This document shows positions 36,317 to 49,166 of a DNA stretch of 64,000 nucleotides, piece by piece (position 1 is the first letter of the stretch; each line of letters begins with the position of its first letter). This stretch comes from Sporohalobacter salinus (lineage in GTDB: Bacteria; Bacillota; Halanaerobiia; Halobacteroidales; Acetohalobiaceae), in contig NZ_JAFBEG010000008.1 of the NCBI RefSeq assembly GCF_016908635.1, positions 1-64,000 on the forward strand, given 5' to 3'. Under the pieces are notes generated by a model. The model did not search any database. It saw only the letters and a program-made list of their open reading frames with translations, and was not told where the DNA came from. A program made the position numbers and the translations under genes.

Positions 36317-36438
36317 TTATACACAATAACTTGTTAACACTATTGTGGATTATTCTGTGGATAATGTGGATAAGTTCGAAATTTCCTAACTTCTAAGGCT
36401 TATATATGTGTATAACTCCACTATATGCCTGTGGATAA
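36317..36438. promoter_or_regulatory. Cluster of six DnaA boxes
   Basis: Matches to TTATCCACA or its complement in 122 bases: TTATACACA (36317), TGTGGATTA (36344), TGTGGATAA (36356), TGTGGATAA (36365, directly abutting), TGTGTATAA (36407), TGTGGATAA (36430). Three are perfect, two have the tolerated C-to-A change, one has a single mismatch; five share one orientation. They fill the spacer upstream of rnj. Confidence 0.75.
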
Positions 36439-36478: not shown

Positions 36479-38152
36479 ATGACAAACTCTACAGATAGAA
36501 TCGGTATTATCCAATTAGGCGGCAAAGGTGTCGTCGGTAGTAATATGATAGCAATTGAATATCAAGATGAAATTCTAGTTCTTGATGCTGGAATTATGTT
36601 TCCTACTGATGAAATGCCTGGTATCGACTATGTTATTCCGGATATGACATATTTACAGAAAAATAAAGAACAAATAAAGGCTTTATTACTCAGCCATGGT
36701 CATGAAGACCATATTGGAGCTGTTCCTTTTCTAATCTCAAAAATAAATGTCCCAATCTATGGTACCAAATTAACTATAGCTTTAGTCAAAGAAAAATTAA
36801 AAGAAAAAAAATTACTTAAGAATACAGAATTAAATAAAATTCAACCTAGAGAAAAAATTGAAATAAATAACTTTAAAATTGAATTTATTAATGTTAGTCA
36901 TAGTATACCTGATTCTGTTGCTATGTCGATAACAACTCCTGCAGGAAAGATTCTGTATACTGGCGATTTTAAGATTGATCAAAGTCCAATCAATAACGAC
37001 TTAACTGATTTCTATAAATTGGCTCAATTAGGAGAAGAAGGCCTACTAGCTCTATTATCTGATAGTACTAATGCAGAACAGGAAGGATACAGCGGATCTG
37101 AAAGTTCTGTTGGTAAAACTTTACATGATCAGTTTCGAACTGCACAGGGAAAAATAATTACTGCTACTTTCTCTAGTCATATTCATAGACTCCAACAAGT
37201 AGTTTCTGTAGCTAAAAAATATGATAAAAAGATAGCAATCAATGGGCGAAGCATGATTAAAACTGTTAAGATTGCTAGAAAATTAGGTCATCTGGATCTG
37301 CCTTCCGAAATGTTAATCGATATTAATAAAATCGATGAGTTTGATCCTACTAAAGTAGTAATTTTGATGACTGGTAGTCAAGGTGAACCAATGGCAGCCT
37401 TAACTAGAATAGCCCGCGGGGATCACCATCAAGTGGAAATCACTCCGCAGGATACTATCATTATTTCAGCTACTCCTATTCCCGGTAATGAAATAGCTGT
37501 TAGTAATACTATCAACCAACTACTAGAAACCGGAGCTGAAGTTGTCTATTATAACCATGCCCACGTTCACGTTTCTGGCCACGGTTTCCAAGAAGAATTA
37601 AAGTTAATGCTTAATCTAACTAAACCTCAATACTTTATTCCTGTCCATGGTGAGTATAGACATTTACATTTCCATGCTCAATTAGCTCAAAAAATAGGAA
37701 TTGCAAAAGAAAATATTTTCGTTACTCCTAATGGAGTTAAACTTGAATTAACAGAAAATAATGCTAAAATAACAGATAAAGTTCCAGCTGGAAAAATATT
37801 AATTGACGGCTCTCAAGCTGGTAATCTAAATAATGATGTCCTAGAAGACCGCCAATCTTTAGGTGAAGATGGAATTGTAACTGTTATGGTTACTATTGAT
37901 GAAGAAACTGGAAAAATAATTGGCGGGCCTGATCTCACCTGTCGCGGAGTTACTTATCAGCAAAACTCCCGAATAAGAAATATATTAAAAGACATAAAAT
38001 CTCAAATAACTAAAATCTTAAATAGAACTAATATAGAAAATATTAATCAACAGTCTAAATTAAAATCTAGAATCAAAGCTGGAGTCAACTCTCTGTTAAG
38101 AAAACAACTAAATAGCAATCCGCTAATTCTTCCTTTAATTATGAAAATTTAA
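36479..38152 (+). CDS. rnj: Ribonuclease J
   Basis: Metallo-beta-lactamase-fold RNase with 5' exonuclease and endonuclease activity in RNA decay. 557 residues with HGHEDHIGA (73-81) as the zinc site, TGDFKID, DSTNAE, MTGSQGEPMAALTRIA and the beta-CASP motifs HVHVSGH and PVHGEYRH. AGAGGTGAAG precedes the ATG. DnaA boxes occupy its upstream region. A hairpin at 38151-38179 separates it from the convergent sipL-like gene. Confidence 0.96.
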   Translation: MTNSTDRIGIIQLGGKGVVGSNMIAIEYQDEILVLDAGIMFPTDEMPGIDYVIPDMTYLQKNKEQIKALLLSHGHEDHIGAVPFLISKINVPIYGTKLTIALVKEKLKEKKLLKNTELNKIQPREKIEINNFKIEFINVSHSIPDSVAMSITTPAGKILYTGDFKIDQSPINNDLTDFYKLAQLGEEGLLALLSDSTNAEQEGYSGSESSVGKTLHDQFRTAQGKIITATFSSHIHRLQQVVSVAKKYDKKIAINGRSMIKTVKIARKLGHLDLPSEMLIDINKIDEFDPTKVVILMTGSQGEPMAALTRIARGDHHQVEITPQDTIIISATPIPGNEIAVSNTINQLLETGAEVVYYNHAHVHVSGHGFQEELKLMLNLTKPQYFIPVHGEYRHLHFHAQLAQKIGIAKENIFVTPNGVKLELTENNAKITDKVPAGKILIDGSQAGNLNNDVLEDRQSLGEDGIVTVMVTIDEETGKIIGGPDLTCRGVTYQQNSRIRNILKDIKSQITKILNRTNIENINQQSKLKSRIKAGVNSLLRKQLNSNPLILPLIMKI

Positions 38153-47264: not shown

Positions 47265-47404
47265 AATTAAACTCCCCGCATTTTATTAGTTATAATTATC
47301 TTAATTGTCACTTATATAACTTAGCTCTAATTATAACACAAAACTTTTTAAAAATTGAATGTAAGTCTTAACAACTAAAGAGGTTATTTGAGTTTTCTAC
47401 AAAA

Positions 47405-47516
47405 TTATCCACAGGAATGCACCTAAATACAGATTTGTGCACAAGGTTATCCACATTTTTAACAGACTTTTACACATTTTGTGGATAACCCATGTGGACA
47501 AGCACAGTTATCCACA
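47405..47516. promoter_or_regulatory. Cluster of about seven DnaA boxes
   Basis: In 112 bases: TTATCCACA at 47405, 47447 and 47508, TGTGGATAA at 47480 (all perfect), plus TTGTGCACA (47435), TTTTACACA (47468) and TGTGGACAA (47493) as weaker matches. Mixed orientations. The cluster fills the spacer between the CAP gene and the 3' end of the glycosyltransferase gene and ends 7 bases before its stop. Confidence 0.75.
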
Positions 47517-47522
47517 AAGTAT

Positions 47523-49166
47523 TCATTGCTTCTCAATTTCCATCAAATCAAATGGTTCCCACTTTCTAATAAAAAATTCACGATCATTAATAAGGTCTCT
47601 CTCCTCTTCTATGGTAAAAACATCTTTTTCTTCTAATTTATCCTGCTTTATTCTATACAGATTGCTTCCCATGAAATCACAACCTTTATATCCTTCCTCC
47701 TGAATCCGTAATAGATAATCAATAGTTTCAAAATAAGATGAATAACAAGTATCAAAATAACCTACTTCAGATACTAATTCTCTAATAAACATATATACTG
47801 CTCTATTGGTATTAATCCAATCAACCTCACTTTGAACTAAATTCTGCTTAAATAATTCACTCAGTGTCAAACCTATTCTCTGCTCATCTTCTGTCCACAC
47901 TTGGGGCTTTATAATAGAAGCCTCATTATTCTCTTGTAGTTTAGTTACCAGAGAATTTAACCACCCTTCTGTTACTCTAAAAGAGGTATCCATAAGTAGA
48001 ATATACTGACCATTACTCACTTTAATTCCTCGATTATAGGCTTTAGCATAACTAAGTTTCTTTTTAGGTGTAATTACTTCTATCCAACTTAAAAGTTTAA
48101 AATCTTCTAAGCTATTACCACAATCATAATTATCAATTATTATTATTCTATAAGTAAAATCGGTGTTCTCTAAAATATTCTTTATACAGCCCTCCATTAT
48201 CTCTAGTTTATTATTGTTAACTAAAACTATATCTACTTTTCTTTCTTTGCTGGTAATGACATTTGATAATTTATCTCTAATCAATTCACTCCAGCTTTGA
48301 ACTGTCTTCTGCCACTTATGTTTTTTAGCTATCTCCAAGCCTTTTTTAACTAGCTTCTTAGCTAAAGTATTATCCTTTAATAACTTCAAAGTCCTAAGAA
48401 CAATCTGTTTCATATCAAAATTAATTGAATCCGAATAATTATCCAATAAAGAATCTGTTACCTTTTGGTCAATGATTACTATTGGTATTTGGGAAGCCAT
48501 TAACTCTAAAGTAGTTAATCTATCATTTCTCTTTCCATTAACTATCAATGCTAATTCAGCACTAGCATACTGAACCACTCTAGCTTCTAAAGATTCAAGG
48601 TTCATTACTTCATAGGCCATTTCTGTATCAAGTACCAAACCTTCTTTACTCAAAATAACAACTTCAATTTGACATGAATTTTCAATCAACTCTAAAGCAT
48701 TAACTAAAAATTCTATTTCTTTCCTAGCTAGTCCATGACCTGAAATTATAATTCTCCGTTTTTTTGTTGTAATTAATTTATCTTCTAATTTTGATTGATA
48801 AAAATCTTCTTTCACTCCAAAAGGAATAAATGCCGTCCTCGATTGAAAATTAACAGGAAGACTGTCTTTTTGACCTTTTTTTGTTACCACCATTGGCAAA
48901 TGATATAAACTTTTTTCTTCTAAGTCATCATTCCAACCTCTATACCAATATATTACTTGCATAGTCTTTCGCTTAGCCAATAAATTAGCTACTGTAAGAT
49001 TATCAGTAACCACTAAATTTACTTTTCTATGTTTATTTAAATCTAATTTCTGCTGTTGATAACCGATTCCTATCTGTAATTCTTCCTCTAAATCTAACAA
49101 TAAATCTTTAATTAATAATTCTTCTCTTTTATTAAGCAAAGTCTGCAAATGAAATATAACCTGCAC
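47523..49166 (-). CDS. Two-domain glycosyltransferase (GT-B-like plus GT2)
   Basis: 547 residues. The N-terminal 260 or so resemble a GT-B glycosyltransferase (RRIIISGHGLARKEIEFLVNAL, then LEARVVQYASAELALIVNGKRNDR). The C-terminal part (about 287-540) is a GT-A family 2 domain (VDIVLVNNNKLEIMEGCIKNIL, IIIDNYDCGNS, YAKAYNRGIKVSNGQYILLMD). The start is GTG with GGGAGG 7 bases upstream. A role in surface or spore glycosylation is inferred from the neighbours. Acceptor and donor are unknown. Confidence 0.85.
   Translation of the reverse strand: MQVIFHLQTLLNKREELLIKDLLLDLEEELQIGIGYQQQKLDLNKHRKVNLVVTDNLTVANLLAKRKTMQVIYWYRGWNDDLEEKSLYHLPMVVTKKGQKDSLPVNFQSRTAFIPFGVKEDFYQSKLEDKLITTKKRRIIISGHGLARKEIEFLVNALELIENSCQIEVVILSKEGLVLDTEMAYEVMNLESLEARVVQYASAELALIVNGKRNDRLTTLELMASQIPIVIIDQKVTDSLLDNYSDSINFDMKQIVLRTLKLLKDNTLAKKLVKKGLEIAKKHKWQKTVQSWSELIRDKLSNVITSKERKVDIVLVNNNKLEIMEGCIKNILENTDFTYRIIIIDNYDCGNSLEDFKLLSWIEVITPKKKLSYAKAYNRGIKVSNGQYILLMDTSFRVTEGWLNSLVTKLQENNEASIIKPQVWTEDEQRIGLTLSELFKQNLVQSEVDWINTNRAVYMFIRELVSEVGYFDTCYSSYFETIDYLLRIQEEGYKGCDFMGSNLYRIKQDKLEEKDVFTIEEERDLINDREFFIRKWEPFDLMEIEKQ

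Follow-up and report, generated by a model that had tools for sequence, protein, structure and literature searches.

A conserved, origin-proximal pair of DnaA-box clusters in Sporohalobacter salinus and its relatives, with candidate counterparts across the Bacillota

Initiation of replication in Bacillus subtilis is restrained by six DnaA-box clusters (DBCs)—gcp/ydiF, ywlC, ywcI/vpr, yydA, trmE/jag and yqeG/sda—as set out in two reports (PMC5295017; PMC13220808). The gcp/ydiF region contains 10 sites and binds ATP-DnaA, for which it has a 16-fold preference, with a Kd of about 0.15 µM (PMC4447404). Escherichia coli carries the extra-origin DnaA-box loci datA, DARS1 and DARS2, which tune the availability or activity of DnaA, and a DnaA-box cluster in Streptomyces coelicolor is described, through its citation in PMC5742627, as repressing untimely initiation. 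How general DnaA-sequestering sites are in replication control beyond a few model species is the question on which the sites described here bear.

We analysed 64,000 nucleotides of S. salinus (hereafter, the window), in which two DnaA-box clusters lie 11 kb apart, one beside a gene for a CAP-domain protein and the other beside an RNase J gene. As in the B. subtilis DBCs, several boxes are clustered in intergenic DNA outside oriC, and the location is shared too, some DBCs being origin-proximal and most lying 5′ of genes. The differences are in the loci occupied (CAP and RNase J) and in number (two clusters as opposed to six or more). The clusters resemble datA, DARS1 and DARS2 as extra-origin DnaA-box loci, but those of E. 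coli are IHF/Fis-dependent and differ in box spacing: the inverted core pair of DARS1 has an offset of 14 bp, compared with 24–25 bp in the window cluster. The S. coelicolor cluster belongs to a different phylum and is likened to these by description only.

The cluster beside CAP (cluster 2; 47405–47516, no strand assigned) is an intergenic stretch of 112 bp and 62% AT that contains four perfect DnaA boxes (TTATCCACA), one with a single mismatch and two with two mismatches, in mixed orientations. Perfect boxes occupy 47405–47413, 47447–47455 and 47508–47516 on the plus strand and, inverted, 47480–47488 on the minus strand. The weaker ones are TTGTGCACA (47435–47443, plus, two mismatches), TTTTACACA (47468–47476, plus, two mismatches) and TTGTCCACA (47493–47501, minus, one mismatch). 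Six bases separate the end of the last box from the stop codon (47523–47525, minus strand) of a glycosyltransferase gene (47523–49166, minus). The original prediction of four perfect and about three weaker boxes of mixed orientation within 112 bases, ending next to a stop codon, was borne out by our box scan, as was its mention of another cluster 11 kb away. The latter, the RNase J cluster (cluster 1; 36317–36438, no strand assigned), has perfect boxes at 36356, 36365 and 36430 and one-mismatch boxes at 36317, 36344 and 36407; the boxes at 36356 and 36365 abut to form a double box.

As a control for box density, the 64-kb window was resampled 300 times under a first-order Markov model and the best 112-bp stretch was taken each time. 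No resampled stretch exceeded one perfect box, or three boxes when a single mismatch was allowed, compared with four and five in cluster 2, such that the box-density scan proposed at the outset gave a value far above that of resampled sequence. The whole draft genome (2.68 Mb in 54 contigs) contains 30 perfect boxes, compared with 26 matches to the reversed pattern, and uniform placement of 30 boxes would yield around 6 × 10⁻⁹ sets of four within 112 bp. Four of the 30 are in cluster 2, three are in cluster 1 and five surround dnaA on contig C13, and strong clustering in this genome is therefore confined to oriC and the two clusters. The whole-genome lists of the window genome and of a complete congener include no other pair of perfect boxes within 200 bp outside oriC.

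Both clusters recur throughout the family genomes sampled. Across the five genomes compared—the window genome (G000), the complete congener (G001; 2,469,596 bp), G002, G003 and G004—the orthologous CAP gene and RNase J each have a cluster on their 5′ side in every case, in intergenic DNA that is 52–76% identical to that of the window. The box at 47405 is perfect or nearly so in all five aligned genomes, that at 47447 is conserved in the alignment and the inverted box at 47480 is kept in all five with one mismatch in G004; stronger boxes stand at the position of the weak 47435 box in G002, G003 and G004. The one-mismatch box at 47493 is common to the window genome and G001 only, and the perfect box at 47508 is found in the window genome only. 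When the cluster is read towards CAP, starting at its far side, G003 and G004 show an inverted box at position 0 followed by boxes of the other orientation at 25, 34, 46 and 76; the offsets are around 24, 33, 45 and 75 in Acetohalobium, in which some boxes are degenerate. Alignment columns within boxes are invariant at 23 of 45 positions in cluster 2, as opposed to 49 of 213 elsewhere (p = 2 × 10⁻⁴), and at 48 of 54 in cluster 1, as opposed to 26 of 110 elsewhere (p = 5 × 10⁻¹⁶); by this test, the boxes are better kept in cluster 1, the p values being indicative only as neighbouring columns are not independent.

On the basis of gene order, CAP, SipL, RNase J and ispE, which flank the clusters, belong to the conserved backbone. 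A NAL1-like protease, CAP, SipL, ispE and purR are also close together in several other Bacillota, and the accessory island that we considered was rejected, with CAP beside the cluster in all five family genomes and the gene neighbourhood recurring elsewhere in the phylum; the original prediction of inserted accessory DNA was thus mistaken. It also placed cluster 2 between the CAP and glycosyltransferase genes, of which the CAP side holds in 5/5 genomes. The gene on the far side varies among the five and the glycosyltransferase is located around 8 kb from the cluster in G003, leading us to reject an association with it. The position relative to oriC comes from the complete congener, whose record opens with sequence matching the dnaA-bearing contig of the window genome; counted from that end, the clusters lie at 69.9 and 84.4 kb. 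The window contig (C8), which does not carry dnaA, is collinear with this record down to around 15 kb. Given the conserved pair, an origin-proximal, two-part DnaA-control region, as first proposed, is a fair description.

Consensus boxes clustered outside oriC, in intergenic and origin-proximal DNA, are what characterizes the B. subtilis DBCs, and we propose that cluster 2 is probably an extra-origin DnaA-binding site of this kind that restrains initiation together with the RNase J cluster. From the boxes and their conservation, we infer that DnaA would bind here and be titrated, and that initiation and the transcription of CAP and RNase J may be affected. In the proposed mechanism, DnaA, probably mainly in its ATP-bound form, would bind cooperatively to the conserved boxes. 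Because the site is origin-proximal, it would be duplicated soon after initiation and would then hold more DnaA away from oriC, restraining re-initiation; the CAP and RNase J clusters would act in concert across the 11 kb between them. The fixed place 5′ of CAP makes DnaA-dependent regulation of this gene plausible as a second role. The window genome has only one true DnaA match and encodes a YabA homologue. Counting against a DBC, the boxes of cluster 2 are less well kept than those of cluster 1, and the sister family lacks clusters at these genes, suggesting that they can be dispensed with on a longer timescale.

The 5′ placement of the clusters fits transcriptional control as well as it fits titration, and its strictness makes a transcriptional role the main rival. 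On this account, the clusters would serve mainly in DnaA-dependent control of CAP or RNase J, coupling envelope or spore genes to the state of replication, and titration would be incidental. Boxes that lie directly 5′ of a gene and stay with it, as expected of a DnaA-regulated promoter, are found at CAP and at RNase J in all five genomes while the other flank of cluster 2 changes, and several B. subtilis genes with promoter clusters respond to DnaA, by repression or activation (PMC4447404). Cluster 1 is followed by RNase J (36479–38152, plus strand), and cluster 2 is on the 5′ side of CAP (PF00188; 46506–47264, minus strand), with about 140 bp between its nearest box and the start codon. The intervening DNA holds a conserved putative promoter that comprises an inferred −10 element (TATAAT; 47330–47335, minus) and a possible −35 region (TTACATTCAA, plus strand TTGAATGTAA; 47355–47364, minus), both invariant in the five genomes. 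However, a consensus promoter scan left the minus strand empty, with no promoter for CAP and no call at 47330–47335; the cluster of another lineage in the same neighbourhood is on the 3′ side of CAP and precedes another gene; and the commonest site in the Bacillota is 3′ of tsaD. We regard transcription as the main function as unlikely, if still a serious contender. Titration of the DBC kind and a transcriptional role may both hold, and the replication-linked regulation of neighbouring genes that was originally suggested is possible.

Two further readings fare much worse than either titration or transcriptional control. Dense boxes of mixed orientation close to oriC could mark a second replication origin or an unwinding element. 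However, cluster 2 is less AT-rich than its flanks (62% versus 70–77%) and is not an AT peak. Long DnaA-trio runs (TAGTAATAGTAGTAATAGTAG; TAGTAGTAGTAGTAATAG) are present at oriC of both the window genome and G001, and a search for them at the two clusters found none; dnaA itself sits on another contig. GC skew in G001 is positive throughout 24–112 kb, with no switch at 70–84 kb. Lacking both DnaA-trios and a skew switch, the clusters are therefore not origins or unwinding elements, a reading that we rejected as highly improbable; the trio repeats that had been suggested as a check were absent. That the boxes are a chance cluster or the remnant of a mobile element is scarcely credible: the shuffled sequences never approached the observed density, position and spacing are conserved in five genomes despite the divergence of their intergenic DNA, and nothing was found in favour of this idea, which conservation refutes.

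In the sister family (the Halobacteroides/Orenia group), RNase J and CAP are still around 9–18 kb apart in several genomes and no cluster was found at either place. The complete sister-family genome G005, with no perfect-box cluster elsewhere, seems to do without extra-origin clusters; thirteen perfect boxes stand at the start of its record (C1:204–1872). A more distant lineage, f45 (G067, G108 and G143; loci L083, L085 and L087), has a cluster or a weaker box group in the gap between CAP and SipL. A stringent scan of 20 SipL loci of Bacillota found a cluster in G108 only, with weaker boxes at the same SipL-linked place in its relatives G067 and G143, and a general SipL-linked cluster was rejected on this count (1/20). 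A universal inverted pair at a 25-bp offset was also rejected; inverted pairs are widespread, and this offset is not outstanding among the matches listed. CAP–SipL clusters far from the family of the window were observed at L083:2171–2234, L087:3482–3535 and L195:7846–7875. In the window itself, a gas-vesicle gene of GvpL/GvpF type (PF06386; 40464–41267), conserved in the family, lies between CAP and SipL, and a CryBP1-domain protein gene (PF07029; 45310–46272), of which G001 has two copies, encodes a long acidic N-terminal part.

Beyond the family, a survey of 30 tsaD loci across the phylum, counting as a cluster a score of 5 or more near tsaD, identified one in 18 of the 28 loci from outside the family of the window and none in the two loci from within it; no control locus around RNase J or CAP scores above 3. 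The tsaD clusters often have boxes on the minus strand at 0, 9 and 21 bp, which is also the spacing of the boxes at 25, 34 and 46 of the CAP cluster in G003 and G004. A scan of 101 Bacillota genomes for the abutting double box, TGTGGATA[AGT]TGTGGATAA, returned 66 sites in 47 genomes and no match to the reversed control pattern. Nearly half of these sites (32/66, in 31 genomes) lie 16–497 bp 3′ of tsaD, 30 of them on the tsaD strand, and the double box is present in the RNase J cluster of the window and in both clusters of G004. Among the others, Pfam searches identified recurrent genes for comF-like phosphoribosyltransferase/zinc-ribbon proteins, hpf (S30AE) or solute-binding proteins. A class-mate of the window organism, G014, has one cluster directly 3′ of tsaD and another beside an hpf-like gene.

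By position, the tsaD site corresponds to the gcp DBC of B. subtilis, and the family of the window apparently uses the RNase J and CAP sites in place of a tsaD cluster, which would amount to a relocation of sites. DBCs as such are already known; what is unexpected is the conserved place and spacing across the phylum and this apparent relocation. It is conceivable, although we lean against it, that the Bacillota share a standard extra-origin DnaA-control set, in which a double-box module, often with a third box 12 bp on, is found in many families both 3′ of tsaD and beside comF, and that in the Acetohalobium family this duty moved to the origin-proximal pair of sites on the 5′ sides of RNase J and CAP. 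If true, this would make the set a functional counterpart of datA/DARS at the level of the phylum, one that changes place without losing its architecture. A literature search for DnaA boxes at tsaD, with rnjA, in Halanaerobiales and outside oriC in Clostridium, of partial coverage and thus weak as evidence, returned no report. The two conserved sites of these halophilic anaerobes and the gcp counterparts, with their fixed box arrangement, offer concrete places for studying initiator titration and ATP-DnaA sensing.

Clusters directly 3′ of tsaD in many Bacillota families include L191:4803–4912 and loci L224–L246. In G014, six perfect DnaA boxes of the same orientation (L192:4776–4934) lie around 150 bp 5′ of a LacI-type regulator gene. 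A second recurring site, present in several families, is represented on the hpf side by L190:4856–4976, L250, L258 and L272, and by L259, L264 and L273 where a comF-like gene stands beside a solute-binding-protein gene.
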